In this document: piece by piece, positions 5,366 to 62,000 of the stretch
How positions within the stretch are numbered: position 1 is the first letter of the stretch
How the letters are laid out: the number at the start of each line of letters is the position of its first letter
Source of the DNA: Sphaerolaimus hirsutus
Lineage: Eukaryota > Nematoda > Chromadorea > Monhysterida > Sphaerolaimidae
Direction of reading: 5' to 3'
Assembly (NCBI GenBank): GCA_964036195.1
Contig: OZ038456.1
Coordinates: forward strand, 13,888,001-13,952,000
DNA: 64,000 nt
The notes under the pieces: generated by a model
Told to the model about the DNA's origin: nothing
Database searches by the model: none
Seen by the model: the letters and a program-made list of their open reading frames with translations, nothing else
Position numbers and translations under genes: made by a program

Positions 5366-6656
5366 ACATAAATACACCAGTGGCTTGTAATGGAGCTGGC
5401 ATGCAGTTGGCTTCATGCCCTTCCCAAACCCAAGCAAACACTCAGCTCTGGGTGTGTCAGCCACTGCTAAAAATGCTCTACTGTGCAGTGTTCACTCTTC
5501 TAAAGCTACCAGCTGCAGCATGCAAATTGTAAGACATGCACTAGTCTGGACTCTGCTTGGGCACTTGCACTTGGCTTTCACAAAATTTCAAAGCTATAAT
5601 AGCTAAAATTAAAGTAACCTTCTTTTGAATAACTCCATAGTGAGGGATGGAGGGAGGGAAAGGGAAATGCCAAGGGAGGGAAATTCCCTACAGTACCAAA
5701 TGAAATATTTAAATGCCATTTTTTTATTTTTGGAAAACTAAAATATTGCAAGCAGTACAAATTATGGTAGCTAGGCTCAGGCTTGAATGATCAATTGAAA
5801 TTCCATATAAATAATATGAGGGTGTATTTAGAAACATGCACACCAGTAAAACATAGCATTATGTCTTTAGGTACTCTAAAATGTGTTTTTGTTTTTCACA
5901 AAAATTGATTGTGTTGTGCATCTTGGTTACTGTTTCTGATAGAAAGTATCACTTGGATAATACAAACCAGATGAGAATAACTCTCCATTATTTAAGGTAT
6001 CTGAAAAATAAAAATTTAAGATATCTAATATGAAAAATAGAATAGAATAACTTCTCTTGAAATTACCCATAGGTACAGACATAGACAAATGTGATGACTC
6101 ATTCTCTGACGTCTGGACTAAACACTTGTTCACATGAGCACATGAGAAAATATTTATCAGAATTTCATGTTCAGAAGAAGCTAGCTGACATATGTTTATG
6201 TTCATTTTCAAATGACAGCTCATTCAAACAAATGTTATGAACATGCTAACAGTGGGGCCAGGTATGTAGGTACATATTGTATCACATGGCACATGCTACA
6301 TTTAGTCATTGTACATACTGAACACATAAAAACATTGACATTGTCATGGCCAATATTGGCATTAATAAATATTTCTATGCATATAAATAATTACACAGGG
6401 GCCGCTTCTGAGCTCTCTCAGACATAAGAATGGGAAATTCTATAGAAATTAAGTGTCAGAAACAAGAATTTAACATAAAAATAACAATAATGACTTAAAG
6501 TAATTTCTGAAGCTTGTATCCAAAACAGCAAAAAAATAACCTGAACATCAAGGCACAATTTCAGTGTGGTCACCAATACAGAATTGACCCGAAGCTATCG
6601 TTTCCGGAAACTGTCCTGTGTTAATTGACATTAAAAAAACGGAATTTTTACCGAAA
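5366..6656. other. Intergenic region, nothing recognised
   Basis: No exon with splice signals and no obvious inverted repeat was found here. It should include the promoter of the downstream reductase gene, but I cannot place a core promoter. Confidence 0.5.
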
Positions 6657-9600
6657 ATGTCACTTCCATATGGCACCTGGTTGACCGATTTGATGGCAAT
6701 TGCTATGATTTTGTGCGGCGCCGTTGTTTCAGGTTTTTTTCTGATTTTAGAAGTTAAATTGACGAAAAAAGTTGGTTACCGCAACATTTTTTGGTGTTGC
6801 GCGGACGTTTAAAAATCCCACGTATCTCTAAGAACTATCCCACGCGCACGTATCCCTAAGAACAATCCACGATTATATGTTAAAGTGTTTGAAGACATTT
6901 TAATCACTCGGGTTTTGTCTAAGTGTGATTTTGTAAGAAAAGCTGGCAAAGTTCCAAAATTGGGTAATGATTTTTCTGGAAGTAAATATGCGTTTGTGGT
7001 ACATTTCAAAGCGTGTGATTGAACAAAAACGTTGTTCCGGTTTGGGGGATTAGCATTCCAAAAATGTAAATCTTATATTTTATTTTGTCATATATCAGAT
7101 TATATTTCTAAAAATCGCTGAAAACCTCTCAAATATCTCATTATTAATCTAGATTAAACCTCTGTGAAAAATATATCACATTTTGCCAAAATTTCTCAAA
7201 TTTCTTAAATATTGATAACTTAAATTCAAATTTCAAGTTTACTCAATCTCGAGCGCAGGCCTTTTGCACTGGTTTGACTTCGCCGCTGAATATGGCAGAT
7301 ATCAGCAGAAGTTATTTCCATCTTTGGGCCATCTTTCCCTGCCTGTCAAGGTGGCCTGGGTTGTCCAAGAATTACCCAGGTGTCAATTTTGCAAGTGGAC
7401 AAGTGACAAGAAAAGTGCCAAGTGCTTACTAAAGCCACAAGTGCAATTAAAAATTGTAAATGAGTGTCACAAGTTGTAAGTTACAAGTCATTGCAAGCTG
7501 AATATATTTTTAAAATAAAATTATTAGCATCGTTAGTAAAATGCTAATAATCTATTAGTAGAATCATTAGTATAAGCTATTAGCATTGTTGTAAAAGTTC
7601 ACTGGAATGGTGTCAAATTAACGATGCTTTGATTGTCTATGCTTCATTTATAGTAAAACCTATACCTATGTAAAGTTACTTATTACCCGCATGTCTTGCC
7701 ACTACACTGAATGCATTCAATTTCCTTTACCACACAAAGTTCACTTGTCACATTTGACTTGTCACTGACGTCAACACGTACAAGTTAAACTTGTCACTTG
7801 ACTACCACTCACAACTTTTCCTGTCACTTGTCCACTTGCAAACTTGTCCCCAGTTTCGCGATTCCAGTGTGGTTCATTGTGAGTGGAAATTGCGACAGAA
7901 TGTGGCACGTTGGCAATGCGCTCGTTTTGTGGCTCTTTGTGATGCATTATGCCCAACGGTGAGTTCGCGAGAATAGATTTTAGGTAATTTTTTAAGTACG
8001 CGGGAGTTCGCGTGAATTTTTTGAGTACGCTAACTGCGTTTTGTGAAAATGCTACTGCTCACAATGTTGAGAGCAGAGACGGCAAATTTTTACACTTTTG
8101 TTTCGACATTTGTGACTTAACGATAAACAGTGAGCAAACCCGCTGGACATGCATCGCTGCCAGAGAAGTGTCAGTTGAATCTTAAAATGTTCTCGAAATC
8201 AACTTTTTGCAGTTATCGACGTTTAGAAGTACCGACGTGTGGAAACCTCACTTGATATTTTAAAAATCGTTCAATTTATAAAAAATGATCCAAACTTTCC
8301 GCAGCACGTTTATCTACTCGATGCTGATCAGAGGGGGCAAAAGTACACCGGCGCATGTGTTTCTGCTTGCATTCATTTTCACATGTTTCAACGGATACAT
8401 GCAGGTGCCACTTCTGCAAGTGGGCAAGTGACAAGAAAGTGTTAAGTGGTGTAGTTCATGGTAAACAGATTGCGCGCTTTACACTCAAATATATTTAACG
8501 GACCACAATAACGACAATAGAAACAACTTCTCTTTAAAATAATCCATTTCACTACGATATAATCCAGCACGGAAAGTCACATGACTTTATTCGTCTAAGT
8601 AAATATGTCTGCAGAGTGTGCCATTCGCTCAGTAAGTATACTGATAATCAAAGCAGTATTTAAGTCAAGTGACAGTTATTTCCATTTACCAATTTACTTG
8701 CCTGCCACTTTTTCACCTTAAGTCTAATTTGCCACTTGCCACTTTTCTTATCACTTATTCACTCGCAAAACTTGCCCCAGAGCGCCCATCATTGCAATTC
8801 GCACGTGGCTTATTCAGATATTTTTTTCTGGGATGGCTGGAAGATTTTCGGATGTGCCATGTTTTTCGGCGGCATGGCGATCAATTTGCACGCAGATCAT
8901 GTGCTCAGAAATTTGAGAAAAGAGGGGGAAAGTGGTTATAGGATACCCTATGGTTTGTTTTATGTTTCATGTTTGATTGCAGATTTCGAAGGTTAGGTGT
9001 GAGTTTTGGTATTAATGCGTAACGCTAAAAAAATTTATACCGTATTTCTTTGAATAGTTTTACACCCACGAAAAGAATAGAACGGCAGCCTCCAATAGTA
9101 CGGCAGGTAAAAATTACGTAGTAAGAGTGCCAATACACAAAAATATTTGCAAAATTGGTGGTGAGAACCTCCAGGGTGTTCAGACTATGATTCAGGGGTT
9201 CAATTTATGCTCTGATATTAATATGTTGCTCATGTCTCACTAAAATTACTATGTTCAAATGAAAAATGTGTGAAAAAGTAACGTGGAAAAATAGAACGGC
9301 AGCCTCCAATAGAACGGCACCTCCAGTAGAACGGCACCTCTAATAGAACGGCAGGTAAAAAGTTGACGAAAAAAAGGGAACGGCGCCGTTCTATTACATG
9401 AAATACGGTATATGTATTTTGAGGGGCATTGCGGTTTATTCCCCGATATACGGTAAAAAAAATTTGTAGAGCAAGTTCAACTACTTCTCATCTCATCTTA
9501 AGCCCTTTTTTCTTTGTCAGGTGGTCTATTTAACTACATTTCCTGCGCGAATTATTTCGGGGAAATTGTGGAATGGGCCGGATGGGCGCTAGTAGCTGGC

Positions 9601-10117: not shown

Positions 10118-10716
10118 TATTTGCTTGAATAATTCCCCCTTCAATAATTCCCCCTTCAATAATTCCCGCTTGAATAATTCCCCCTTGAATAATTCCACCT
10201 TGAATAATTCCACCTGGAATAATTCCCTCCTGGAATAGTTCCCTCCTGGAATAGTTCCCTCCTGGAATAGTTCCCTCCTGTAAGGCGACTGGGGAAAAAT
10301 GATTCCTCCCCTTTGAATAATTCCCCCCTCAAGGTATATAGGGCCCCCACGCGCTAGTTGACATCGACACCAAATGTCAACTGGTGCCGATCCCGATTCA
10401 AAGCTTGCTGACTAGTGGACGAACGACGTTTAAATGCAATCTTTGAATTGGGAATGAAACCAGTTGACATTTGGTGTCGATGTCAACTAGCGTGTGTGGG
10501 GCCATAATCAATTTGTTGTGTTCAATTTGAACAAAAACGGCATTTTATTGTGTAAATCAAGCATATTTTGTGAAACGATTTGATAGACACATGCTTGAAA
10601 TTGTGATGAAGTAATAATCCATCCCCTTGAATAATTCCCCCTCTAATAGTTCCCCCTCAAAAAGTCCGATGAAAAAATAATTCCCGAAATACGGTGTATT
10701 CAAGCAAATACGGTAT
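10118..10716. mobile_element. CCGTATTT MITE with nested foldback
   Basis: Left end ACCGTATTTGCTTGAATAAT; right end TTCAAGCAAATACGGTAT. The interior is a run of GAATAATTCCCCC units. A second element, 10,341-10,502, is nested inside: GGGCCCCCACGCGCTAGTTG inverted against the AGCGTGTGTGGGGCC end, with ATA on both flanks. Together they fill the space between the two convergent genes. Confidence 0.75.
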
Positions 10717-29200: not shown

Positions 29201-32200
29201 GGGGGGGGAGTTGTTTTTTCGTCAGAATATTCAGTGCATAAGTACGAACATCGCCGCTTTAGGTAAAACGTTATTTTGCGTTTACGTTGCATACGCTGCA
29301 CTGCCTTTGCAGTCAATGAACCAGACCATGGCTTTTTTGTTCTGTCTGGCTTCATCGAAATGTTTTTTTAATGTGACACCACTTATTTGCATCGATCATA
29401 GGGGGGGGTATTCGAGGGGGACGGGTTATTTTTTCCTCATGCTCGCAAGAGGGGGGAGTTATTCGAGGGGGGAGTTACTCGAGGGGGAGGACTTATTCGA
29501 GTATTTACGGTAGTTCATTTTTTTCACTGATTACATCCCGCAGAACATCAATAAGAAGTGAATGTGTGCACTACACTGATTGAGATATATTTTTAGCAAG
29601 TAAGGGTATTGTACGCACTTATTCAGCCTGGCGCCCTTGGCGCTCGGCACCCTTATTTTTCAAATGGCGCCATGACGCCCTTGGCGCTTGACGCCCTCTT
29701 TCCCTGGCACCCTTGGCGCCTGGCGCTCACTTTCAGAATGGCGCCATAGCGCCATTGGTGCCTGGCGCCCTTTTATTCTGGCGCTTTTCCATCAGGTATG
29801 TATTTACCTAGGTATTTATGTAAACTGTGCTGTCTCCAGAGTATGAAGGCATACGATACGAAGTACATTTTTACAAATTAGGTCGATGTAAATATTTACA
29901 TTCTAAAATGAATGTTACACATTTCTTTCTCTTTCCGATTTATTGTTTCCATGAGATTTTACCACATGTAAAAAAAATTATATTGAAAATGTATTTATAA
30001 TAAATTTGCAGATTTGGACCAAAAATAAAATGCGTGCTTTGATAGCATCATGTTGGTTGCTGGCTGCGCTTTCCATAAAAGAACTAGCTCTGGATTATGA
30101 GTATCGGATTGGCGAAATTGATGGCATGTTTTACTAAAAATACGTATTGCGGACCACACGCTTTTTTAAAATCATTCTGAATTACCTCAATGCGTCATTG
30201 GCGCTCCACACGGTAGTTGACGCTACTTTTTAGAAGTCGATTGAGTCAACTCAGAGTCAACTGTTTTTTTTCAGTTGACCCCAGAACCTATTTAGTTGAA
30301 AACGTGCACACTTTGTTTGTGTCAACTGAAAAATTTGGACAGTTGACAATTTTGAGAAAGTGACAAGTCAATTCAAACGACACGCGTGCGCTAAAAAGTG
30401 TACATTTTTCATTCAGTTGACATTTCTTGATGATAACCTTTGTCAATTGGGTGATTTTATTAGGCAAAAATCAACTTTAGTTGACATTTTTGCTGCACTC
30501 AAATAACAGATTTTTATAGTGAAAATGTCAACTAGTGAAAAATGTGTATGTACTGCATGCAAGTGTACGTTTTTAGTTGACATTTTCATTTTACAGAAAT
30601 TCAATTGACACAAGTAGTCACTCTTCATTGTCAACTGCCCAAAATAGTGCAAAAAAGTATGAAAAAGTATGTTTTTTCGCTAGTTGACACAGCACTCGCC
30701 GACTTTCTAAAAGTACCTTTATTAATTCATTTTTAATTATAAATGTATGAAATTTGAGACTCTGATAGAGAAAAATGTACTCCATCTTTCATAGAAGAAC
30801 TTTTCGCATGAAAAATTATAATAAAGTTTTGAAAAACATTTTTGTCCAAATTTTTTGCTTGAGTTGACTTCAGGTTTTTGTACTGATCGTACGCGCATGC
30901 TCACTTGACAACCATGAATTTTTCACTTTGTCAACTTCAAAAAAAGTTTTATCACAAAACTTACTAAAAATGTAATTTGATGCTGGAGTAGTGAGGGAAA
31001 AGGTGAAAAAGTGAATAAAGACTGGTGAATGCAGACTGTCATGGATAAAATGGCCAAATTGCTCAATTGACATATCATTGTGATTGTATTTGTCAAATTT
31101 ATGAATTCATGCTCAACTCAGCAATTTTTCACTCATTTTCAAAAATCATTTTTGAAAGTCAAATATGTCTCCATTCTTAACAATTAAAAAATATATGTTT
31201 GAATATTTTTCCTCTATCAAATGACATGTATTACACAATTTAAATTGCAGTAAAACATAACTTTGAAATATTTATACATTTAATTTTCTAAAAATTATAT
31301 ATTTTGTTTCCTGTATGCATTTCGTTTTGTTCAGTGATCACTATGTTCCAAATTTTTTTATCTTCCTGCTGGTACTGTTTGCAATATGATATACATTTGT
31401 TGTGTTCAATGAAAAATAAATTTTGGTTTGATGCAAAATAATTTTTTCATCTATCATTAAGGCATCATTTAAACATGTTGATATATCAAAAAATTGGCCT
31501 TTATTAATACTACATGAATCACCAAAACAATTTTCACACAATTACACATGTCACAAATTAAAATTTTTTCAATGTGAAACAAGAAAATAAATTTTTAAAT
31601 TATCATACTTTACTTTAACATGAATAATTGAGTGTCACAATATCAAATGGATTTTGCTTAACAACATAGGAACATTTAAATCACGCAAATAGCATCAAAG
31701 AAGGCTGGGTCAACTCATTTCTGAAAATGTATTATTCGCAGTTGACAATATCGTTTAACAATCAGACCTAACTACCCAAAAAACAGGTTAACACATACGC
31801 AGTTGCGTAAATGTCTACTAAGAAATAGGTTGTGTCAACTAAATGGAGTTGACTCTGAGTTGACGCTGGAATCTATGTCAACTAGCGTGTGCAGCGCCAA
31901 TGTGATGTCATCTTTTATAAAACACAAATTGTTCTAAAAAAGTTTCACGCACAAGTAAAGTATTTTCTGGTTTAATATTAGGTATTTCTTTTGTGAAAGT
32001 GGGTTCTCAAACGTTTTTTCGGAATAATTTTTATTTTATTAATGATGACGTCATGGTGGCGCGTTTTTTCTTCTTCAAAAAATGCATAGCATGCACTCCG
32101 CGGGGCAGTTTATACCACATGCATTGTCACTTGTGCACTTGCGGAATTCTCACCTTTGTTGTACACAGGGAGAGCTAATATGCAGTTTGGTGGGGGCCAA

Positions 32201-53908: not shown

Positions 53909-54292
53909 CATGTCCCTGAGATTTCTGAAGCCTTTCAAGCCACGCATAAAATGCTAAATTTATGTAATCCTGAGGTTATTTGAAATAACGTGTCCAATGT
54001 CAATTCCATCTACGTAATTTATAAAAAAACACTTCACTGTTTTGTTTAAGTAACTGTTGGTGAGCAAAAATGAAAGTTTTGAACCAACAGATGAAAAATA
54101 CAGAAAGATAAAAAATTTATAACTAAAGAGTACCAAGAAGCTGAAAAGCTAGACAAAGCTAGCTTGCATTCCCATGTTTTCAAATTGAAAACGAACTTGG
54201 TGGCTGGTGGCAGTCCCAAGCACTGTAAAGTGTAAAGTCAAGTGTCAAATGTCATGAAAAAATTACACTTAACAAGGCTCGGGACTAGTGAT
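53909..54292. other. Receptor 3' region; MITE-end fragment
   Basis: After the receptor stop the frame stays open for 24 more codons. At 54,210-54,265 GGTGGCAGTCCCAAGCACTG begins a fragment of the GGCAATCCCAAGCC family. Nothing else is seen. Confidence 0.4.
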
Positions 54293-59031: not shown

Positions 59032-62000
59032 ATGCGCCGGGCACCCGACATCTTGCGGCGGTGTGTTTTGGCTCGGTGCCAAGTTGTATCTGTTAGCTCC
59101 GCCCGTGTCAGACGAATGGCTTTTGTTAGTTACGATCTGGCGCGGGAATGTCTACATGCGCCCAGTACAAGTACAGGTCTGTGGGATTTATTTATTGTTA
59201 TGTGTTTTCGGGTGATTGTAGTATGTCAATTAGATAAAGCCTGTGCCTCTGCATGTTTACCGAAAAACTTGAATGAAAAATCGCTAAAAGTAGGTGAAAA
59301 ATTACTAAAAATAGGTATGTAAACACTTACTACAAAAAATAGCTGCAAATGGACAATAAAACACATGAACTAGTGATTTTGAAGGTGAAAAAGTATGAAA
59401 AGTAGCGATTTTGAGTGAAAATTAAGGTCTACATGCACACCGGGGGGCAATCCCAAGCCCTGTAAAGTAAAGTATCAAATGTAAAGTCAAATGCAAAGTA
59501 AAGTGTCAATCAAAACAAAAAAGAAAAGATTTTATTACTGAACTTTGCATGACAATTGGCACTTTACTTTACATTTGACTTTACATTTGACACTTTACTT
59601 TGCATTTGACTTTACATTTGACACTTTACTTTACACTTTACAGGGCTTGGGATTGCCACCTGGTTTACATGCACAGAAGGCTTCAATCAATTAGATGTCA
59701 TATCATCCAAACTATTTCCATGGTGTTACATCGCACATTGTCAACAATGTTAATGGTGGTAAAACGTAGAAATAGAAGTGAAAGTGAAGATTTGTTACAA
59801 TAATTATCTAATTTCACTTCATTTATCGTTTGGTGCAAATTTAAAAAAATAGGCTGATAGTGTTACACGACCCTTCTGATTAAAATGCAATCTGAAGCGA
59901 CTGTTTGACGTGTTATTAACGCATTCAACACATTTTAAGTAAATATTAATTACTTCCGATCAACAGCGGTACGCTATCTATCGAGCTTCCTCTGTACAGG
60001 GTGGCCCATTGTGAATAGCCGATTCTACAATAATTCTCCTGCTGCAAATGTCACTGAAAATCAATTTCGCGAATCCCTAGATTATATCGCGTTTAAATTG
60101 ACACAGGGCCATTGGTTTTGGAGTCTATCTGAAGCGGAGAAATGTGTTAATGGGATTTGCGCATCGAAAAATGGTTGGATTTTTGATGGTTTTTTTAAGT
60201 AGAATATTGGGACGAAGCGAGGGCTCTGCTCATGATTTTGCATATTGTGTCAGTTTTAAAAACACCTATATGCAACCTGGGGTCACTTTCGCACATTGTG
60301 GACTGTGTAGATAGTGGTATTATAACACGAGATAAGTAAAGTGGAGATTTTAGTTTAAATATGACTTGCAACGGAACTTATGACAACTCCACTTATCATT
60401 TGTTACAACTTGTCAGTTGCGGAATTGACTATTTAAAATTGGCACTCTTCCAACTGCATTTTCTCTACCACATCAATATTTGACCAACTTGCAGGCGAAT
60501 TTCTCTTCACCGACGTAATAAACGTGCTGCGAATGCTGAGCGGAAAAGTGCGCGGCGTGTCTTCGAACAGACACGCTCAAATGATCGACACGTTTTGGAG
60601 ACACGTTTTGAATCACCCTGGTGCGAAATTTTATCATCCACAAGCGTATTTATTGTCTAGTCGCTTGATTTGTTACGTCTGAAATTTTCAGCTTAAACTG
60701 TTTTTGTATGGGTTTAGCCGACCATCACAGACCGATTTTGCATGTTGTTGAGTGTGTAGTTATAAGCGACGCAAGTAAAGTTGCATAAAAAAGTTGGGTG
60801 CGAAGTCTCAAGTAGAGCTTAAGAAGTGACGCGTACAGGGGTATCTTGAATTTTGACCCTCCGAGTGGTTGGATAGATAGCAAATCGCTCCTCCGGAGGG
60901 ATAGATAGCTGAAAAATTTTCTGGGGGGGGTTTGGGGGGGGGGTTGTGGTGGTTCGATATATAGGCTTTTTCGGGGCATAGAGCGAAGAAAAGGGAGAAA
61001 AATCGCTAAAAGTAGGTGTAAAATAGCTCAAAATGGGTATACAAGAGCATATAGTACTTAAAATAGCTGAAAATAGGCAGTTAGACGCATGAACCAGTGA
61101 TTTTGGAGGTGAAAATCTATATATAGGTATGTAACATAGCGATTTTGAGCGAAAATTGGGGTATAGTTTCTGAAAAATCGCTCCAGATAGGTAGATAGCT
61201 GAGCGATTTGGGGGGGGGGTTGGGGGTAGTAGCCCAAAATTTTGCCTCCGGGATAGAAAGATAGCTGAGCGGCCTCCGGGATAGATAGATAGCTGGGCGG
61301 TTTGGGGGGGGGGGGGTAACCCCCCCCCCCCCAACCGCCCCCATTCGAGACCCCTGGACGCGTATTATTATATTTATGTTCATCTTATCATATTCGTATT
61401 ATTATATTTATGTTTACGCGTGTCACTCCCCACTAGTGATGCAAAAAGCGCCAGACTTTTGGCGCCAAGCGCCAAAAGCGCCATGGCGCTTTTGGGATGC
61501 GAGCGCCCTGCGCCAATGGCGCCACAGCAAAATAGCGCCAAGCGCCAAAAGCGCCATGTCGCTTTTCTGGACCACGGCGCCAAGCGCCAGTGGCGCCAGA
61601 GGACGTTGGCGCCAAGCGCCAATAGCGCCAGCGCCAAAAAAATTTGCTGCTCATAAAGTGCACTAGTTAACAACGACAGCCAATTTCAACTAGTTCCCAT
61701 CCCAATCCAATGGTTGCTAATGAGTAACTCTACCTAGTGTTGTATACACATATATTTACTTCATTCCGGCCTAGTATTTACATTGCACATACCAACAATA
61801 CAACATAAGTTTCAGCATAATGCAACAGTATGTATTTGAACATTGCTCATGAGCTAGCTTTGAATTGGGATGGGAACCATTAGGCCCATTATTTGGGAAT
61901 TTTTTTTGAATATCCTTGCAATTGCATGGACATAGTTTACAAAATTAGTAAATAGAGGGTTTCTTCTTCCTGGAATACACTTACAGTAACACATTACACA

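Follow-up and report, generated by a model that had tools for sequence, protein, structure and literature searches.

Introns 2 and 4 of an SRD5A-like steroid reductase gene in Sphaerolaimus hirsutus are very probably introners, each formed by a NuwaI-like, PIF/Harbinger-related MITE that inserted into an exon. The preliminary description of this DNA had proposed that both introns are introners, and this reading is supported by a genome-wide family of related elements, by a splice bias among them and by their exact placement in other genes. Introners as a kind are already known, and the family reported here is a transposon family of which part became introns.

The gene lies on the + strand of the window, which is the whole 64,000-nucleotide stretch analysed (contig C9 of the 348 Mb genome) and to which positions refer unless stated otherwise. 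Two of the five exon-bearing frames that were scanned match the Pfam family Steroid_dh (E = 5.1e-10 and 1.5e-20). The spliced exons align with human SRD5A2 over 205 of 205 query residues (E = 2.1e-45) and span both intron junctions, with no gap at the intron 2 site and a one-residue gap that lies two residues beyond the junction at the intron 4 site. Because the alignment runs through both junctions, removal of 7380-7853 and 8405-8780 as GT...AG introns restores a conserved protein. This alignment, with splice sites placed by eye, also defines exon 3 between introns 2 and 3 (7854-7958), exon 4 ending at the intron 4 donor (8305-8404) and exon 5 (8781-8952), all on the + strand; the reading frame of exon 5 gives the Steroid_dh match with E = 5.1e-10. 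Human SRD5A2 has introns at the sites of introns 3, 5 and 6 and is not known to have any at the sites of 2 and 4, in agreement with what the preliminary description gave for vertebrate SRD5A genes.

Both introns begin with GT, end with AG and share the boundary pattern CAG/GTG[TC]CA...CCC/CAG, where slashes mark element boundaries. Their coordinates and the common inverted repeat that bounds them are as first described. The repeat had been placed 8-11 nt inside the splice sites, but the sharp start of information in 91 aligned copies indicates instead that it reaches them. The bases before donor and acceptor, originally likened to a target site duplication, correspond to a 3-base CAG on either side of each element.

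Intron 2 (7380-7853, + strand) consists of a 471-nt element (7380-7850) and one copy of the duplication. The upstream CAG (7377-7379, +) is kept in exon 2, and the downstream CAG (7851-7853, +) provides with its AG the splice acceptor; both copies were delimited by alignment of genomic copies and a search for partner ends. The left terminal inverted repeat (7380-7417, +) has as its first bases the GTG of the splice donor, and the right one (7813-7850, -) forms, on the + strand, the pyrimidine-rich stretch before the acceptor. These assignments rest on arm pairing and matrix scores, and on a pyrimidine count for the right repeat. Intron 4 (8405-8780, +) is made up of another family member (8405-8777, 373 nt) and a CAG, with its left repeat and donor GTG at 8405-8442 (+) and its right repeat at 8740-8777 (-), both located by matrix score. 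The search for partner ends places its duplication at 8402-8404 and 8778-8780 (both +), and the latter copy is the acceptor. In both cases the protein aligns across the junction.

The position-weight scores of these repeat ends are 50.4 and 46.0 for intron 2 and 40.7 and 33.9 for intron 4; three shuffled versions of the 64 kb window gave a best score of 14.5. The intron 2 scores are partly circular, because the ends of this intron are among the 91 genomic copies used to build the weight matrix; those of intron 4 are not. A further terminal repeat of the family occurs at 32116-32153 (-; score 34.9), with no coding context apparent by eye in the surrounding listed frames. The two arms of the intron 2 element are 38 nt long and 89% complementary, and RNA folding predicts a panhandle joining its ends (z = -5.5). 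In intron 4 the ends pair no better than in shuffled sequence (12 of 100 shuffles fold as well), and a panhandle is consequently not claimed as part of the mechanism.

The two introns could in principle be older and unrelated, with ordinary transposon copies inserted later near their splice sites. Insertion into introns must occur in this family, many copies of which lie outside demonstrable exons. However, if the element had arrived later, remnants of the older intron should lie outside it, and in both introns the element tips are the splice sites, the CAG pair flanks the element and nothing is left over. The tips coincide with splice sites in the genes for LST8 and carnitine palmitoyltransferase 2 as well (see below), and we regard later insertion as improbable.

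A second copy of the SRD5A-like gene lies 22 kb upstream (genome C9:13871970-13874989, matching window positions 5901-8898), with 94% identity over 3 kb and with introns 2 and 4 both present. A search of the whole genome, with 13 of 13 candidates scored and 12 matches, revealed no further copy, and neither of the two offers an empty paralogous site. Because each copy carries both introns, the two insertions most likely predate the tandem duplication of the gene. On visual comparison the two copies hardly differ in their exons or in introns 1 and 2, but intron 3 has diverged strongly and contains many indels, a pattern suggestive of patchy gene conversion. Several other repeats are found in this neighborhood. 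A 17-nt tandem unit of type CCTCCAATAGAACGGCA forms a short array in intron 5 (9089-9361), and a 15-16-nt unit, TTCCCCCTTGAATAA, forms another just downstream of the gene (10124-10283). A different inverted-repeat element at 10344-10500 has 65-nt arms that are 88% complementary, a spacing of 27 nt and the outer part GGGCCCCCACGCGCTAGTTGAC; it resembles the right border of an abundant Harbinger-type element found at another genomic locus (L157).

The element family is dispersed throughout the genome. A search with a 20-base core from the preliminary description finds 12 exact genomic matches and 1587 at up to three mismatches, compared with 29 for the reversed control. A 24-mer of the commoner terminus finds 5295 repeat ends at up to three mismatches and none for its reversed control. 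This number corresponds to some 2600 elements if each has both of its ends among the 5295, and to more if not. An unbiased set was picked by the core alone and comprises 91 of the 1587 hits, those with at most one mismatch. In this set the flanking positions are C in 47 of 90, A or T in 65 of 90 and G in 56 of 90, and they are followed by the first element bases G (62 of 90), G or T (72 of 90) and then GCCAAT. This onset stands directly before the core as first described, and its sharpness in the 91 copies places the start of the element at G[G/T]GCCAAT(T), with CWG as the flank.

Partner ends were sought within about 690 nt, a range that misses longer elements. An inverted partner above the 99% level of shuffled sequence is found for 49 of the 91 core hits and none above that level for the other 42, and the paired elements are about 100 to 620 nt long. 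Since the unbiased set itself served to build the matrix, only 3' partner ends are informative here, and some of these belong to hits in the set. The pairing score also credits a matching flank, so the duplication test was rerun without this credit and with near-identical copies removed. Identical 3-base flanks then occur in 6 of 13 strongly paired copies, compared with 2.5 by permutation (p = 0.0008), in 6 of 22 at the middle pairing cut (2.6 expected; p = 0.011) and in 7 of 40 at the loosest cut (3.1 expected; p = 0.015). Many copies of the family are old and no longer carry the signal.

When the flanks of 32 complete copies were joined and searched for as empty sites, three spanning matches were obtained in the sequences searched. 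Two of these, matches of locus L144 in L028 and L089, were rejected as empty sites because the shared flank runs into the start of another element, and the third, of L146 in the window, is weak (E = 0.001). The end of another repeat family is suggested by a frequent short sequence, TTTACACTTTACAGGG..GGGACTGCCCC. It occurs on the - strand of the window at 59445-59454, 54208-54217 and 2559-2568 and also, for example, at L028, L054, L063, L064, L071, L080, L089, L091, L097 and L144; elements of the intron family stand directly behind it at L028, L076, L089, L097 and L144.

The sequence of a complete copy in the CAG orientation is CAG/GTGCCAATT...AATTGGCCC/CAG. The donor position on the CAG strand is GT in 24, GG in 5 and another dinucleotide in 3 of the 32 complete copies with identical CWG flanks. 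Most of these copies were chosen by their GTG end, and the fairer figure is that of the unbiased part, in which GT occurs in 5 of 8 complete copies with such flanks. Pyrimidines make up on average 66% of the 37 bases that precede the final eight of the element. Motifs such as CTTGAC, CTTAAC or CTTACC, about 40 nt upstream of the acceptor, presumably fit the animal branch-site consensus and may serve as a branch site. At a CTG-flanked copy (L141, genome C1:26930151-26930850), both of the joined flanks remain open (49 and 25 codons) with no AG acceptor formed by the duplication; this could be a chance finding or reflect an intron whose acceptor is shifted.

The preliminary description had held that introners would be refuted if most copies lay between genes and had no splice bias. 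This applies in part: of 46 paired unbiased copies, taken after near-duplicates had been excluded with a manually compiled list, 39 lack GT-AG at their inferred ends whichever orientation is read and only 7 have it, yet a splice bias does exist in the genome-wide counts given below. SRD5A and a cadherin gene were recognized among these seven copies, and part of the remainder was searched.

Copies of the family occur at exactly spliceable places in three more genes. In the carnitine palmitoyltransferase 2 gene (L134), the protein is continuous across the removed element (E = 8.6e-13 against solved structures and 9.6e-14 against Pfam). The joined flanks in LST8 (L051) match across the junction, with E = 2.6e-6 overall and 2.2e-4 over the junction stretch alone, and have a Pfam WD40 match of E = 0.027 only. 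Those in a ligand-gated channel domain (L048) match Pfam at E = 1.7e-7 and have no match among solved structures at E = 0.001. The sequence that reaches both splice sites is common to these three introns and to SRD5A introns 2 and 4. Element boundaries are intron boundaries, and the reading frame is restored on removal.

At other places only one flank is recognized. These include genes for BBS7 (L132; E = 3.1e-12), the cadherin (L015; E = 8.3e-7) and a C2H2 finger protein (L053 and L123, which are one place; E = 6.4e-5), and more weakly a RING domain (L121; E = 0.008, below the Pfam cut-off). Several further joined frames are open and unrecognized. In Pfam scans, four of the first ten joined flanks gave nothing at E = 0.1 and L018 only a match judged to be chance; five of the second ten gave nothing, and the only matches of L135 and L118 were likewise judged to be chance. 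A CPG4 match across the junction at L049 (E = 2.3e-4) is below the cut-off and is left out of the count.

If elements insert at CWG sites and are retained in exons only when they can be spliced, then CAG is expected to accompany the GTG end and CTG the GGG end. Exact matches to terminus and target, counted genome-wide with duplicated copies included, number 234 for CAG/GTG, 142 for CTG/GTG, 102 for CAG/GGG and 147 for CTG/GGG. CAG and GTG are thus linked on one strand, with an odds ratio of 2.37 (Fisher p = 2.2e-7; p = 4.5e-8 after six of the seven members of one local cluster are dropped). An insertion preference could in part contribute to this linkage, and by itself it would not open reading frames.

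Upstream reading frames were compared between CAG/GTG and CTG/GTG loci. After near neighbors and places already sampled were dropped, 84 of 100 and 86 of 100 of the places listed were kept; 40 of each were drawn at random, and the alphabetically first 20 of each were used. In the 147 bases upstream, the frame is open for at least 48 codons at 14 of 20 CAG/GTG loci and at 5 of 20 CTG/GTG loci (Fisher p = 0.010; rank test p = 0.0019). The antisense frames of the same flanks are open at 8 and 9 of 20 loci, respectively, and open frames alone are therefore weak evidence. A Pfam family (E ≤ 0.01) is found in the upstream flank at 3 of 20 CAG/GTG loci (BBS7, carnitine acyltransferase and a C2H2 finger) and at 0 of 20 CTG/GTG loci, in a scan that required a peptide of at least 25 residues, for which 19 and 8 of the 20 loci qualified. 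The splice bias that the preliminary description proposed to look for appears both in the strand linkage of terminus and target and in the upstream frames; both bear indirectly on whether the family is enriched in genes beyond random placement.

These counts also bear on whether the family might be an ordinary MITE with accidentally splice-like ends, whose exonic cases are rare survivors and which has no tendency to form introns above chance. In its favor, the family has thousands of ends, coding introns are demonstrated at few loci, and GT-AG ends occur in 7 of the 46 paired unbiased copies and a GT donor in 5 of the 8 complete ones mentioned above. The four-way count nevertheless has the linkage that splicing would produce, and open frames upstream are commoner at CAG than at CTG copies. 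We consider this explanation unlikely too, and its difference from the introner reading is mostly one of emphasis, since the survivors of exon insertion are introners. A third possibility, that the introns were copied from other introns through reverse splicing of RNA, as has been proposed for fungal introner-like elements, would also be expected to give exact placement between splice sites, but it is very improbable given the inverted repeats, the 3-base CWG duplication, the CTG-flanked and non-GT copies and the many copies lacking GT-AG, all of which point to DNA transposition.

The introner interpretation suggests a simple route from element to intron. A non-autonomous inverted-repeat element, presumably mobilized by a NuwaI-type transposase, would insert into an exon at CWG and duplicate these three bases. 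If the target reads CAG on the gene strand and the GTG end lies upstream, the product would be exon-CAG/GTGCCA...CCC-CAG/exon. The donor would then come from the tip of the element and the acceptor from the duplicated target CAG, and the right repeat read backwards would supply the pyrimidine tract and possibly a branch site. Splicing in the cell would remove the element and one CAG and restore the frame with no base lost or added; because one CAG stays in the exon, the length of the message would be unchanged.

It is tempting, although speculative, to suppose that the CWG target rule of NuwaI elements pre-adapts them to become introns, and that animals could generally gain introns in this overlooked way at CAG/ proto-splice sites. 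A CAG target would bring both the AG of the acceptor and an exon ending in CAG, the reversed repeat would bring the pyrimidines, and a single G-to-T change at the second base of the element would bring the donor.

The origin of new introns is an old question, and animal introners are hardly known. Each ingredient of the introns described here can be traced to a known property of a transposon, with target specificity leading to the acceptor and one terminal base to the donor, which leads to a clear prediction wherever an animal genome contains NuwaI-type elements. Two introns in tandem gene copies, together with thousands of related ends, also provide a test set for splicing strength, age and selection.

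The duplication sets the present family apart from classical PIF/Harbinger elements, which duplicate TWA rather than CWG. NuwaI is a group of the PHIS superfamily, which also includes PIF/Harbinger, and according to the accessible part of its description it has CWG duplications, terminal repeats of 12-61 nt that usually start with GGG, and a distribution confined to animals (Han et al. 2015, PMC4482050). Its reported hosts are fish, a beetle, a crustacean, a mollusc and an anthozoan. The present elements resemble it in their CWG duplication, in the G[G/T]G start of the repeat and in a modelled repeat of about 38 nt that falls within the NuwaI range (PMC4482050). They are unlike it in being non-autonomous and in frequently having GTG rather than GGG at one end, a difference that generates a splice donor; the part of that description available does not list intron formation as a NuwaI feature (PMC4482050). 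Judged from these termini, the family appears to be NuwaI-like and PIF/Harbinger-related. A search for an autonomous partner, which would combine these ends with a DDE transposase and a Myb/SANT protein, found none among the transposase matches described next, and NuwaI-like character is accordingly claimed rather than NuwaI membership.

At least 163 matches to the DDE_Tnp_4 transposase domain occur in the genome (150 of 306 candidates scored). Among the matches listed, 2 of 326 terminus places lie within 8 kb of one, compared with 2.6 expected by chance; the 326 places are those used out of about 400 listed, and near-duplicates and most small contigs were left out on both sides. The commonest DDE_Tnp_4 family was rejected as an autonomous partner because the two copies read have other ends; the right border of the alignment of these copies, GGGGCCAAT, corresponds to nine letters of the terminus in the wrong orientation. 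More than 100 Harbinger-type transposase domain matches genome-wide (for example, at L157 and L158) have nearly equal scores, and most contain four in-frame TGA codons within the match, as though it extended through an intron. These transposase copies are a recent expansion with ends unlike those of the intron family.

The preliminary description had also mentioned introners of tunicates. A tunicate host is not supported: in 600 bases of mitochondrial cox1, AGA stands at serine and not glycine positions and ATA at methionine positions, as judged by the usual cox1 sequence, so the code of most invertebrates fits and the tunicate code does not. MITE introners of Micromonas and Aureococcus are said to have been described by Huff and colleagues in 2016, and MITE-derived introns of the tunicate Fritillaria reportedly by Henriet and colleagues in 2019. 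These systems share with the present family the conversion of small inverted-repeat elements into introns on a large scale, and they differ in their hosts and reportedly in their element ends and target duplications.

The available part of a fungal paper lists PIF/Harbinger among several classes of transposon in gained introns. Searches of the accessible literature turned up no introner of NuwaI type. In a survey published in 2022, 175 of 3,325 genomes contained introners, which among animals and land plants occurred in two groups only, both of them animal; copepods are named in its introduction (Gozashti et al. 2022, PMC9860276, as far as its accessible text goes). According to the same text, some introner families carry one splice site and obtain the other from the target duplication, including a class with its own 5' site and a co-opted 3' site (Fig. 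2C; PMC9860276). The introns described here resemble introners of that survey in that similar introns occur in many genes with likeness up to the splice sites, inverted repeats and duplications, and they resemble the Fig. 2C class in carrying the 5' site and co-opting the 3' site from the duplication (PMC9860276). Within what that text covers, they differ in their CWG duplication, in having a named transposon group with which they can be compared and in their animal host, although the supplement of the survey could include the present family (PMC9860276).
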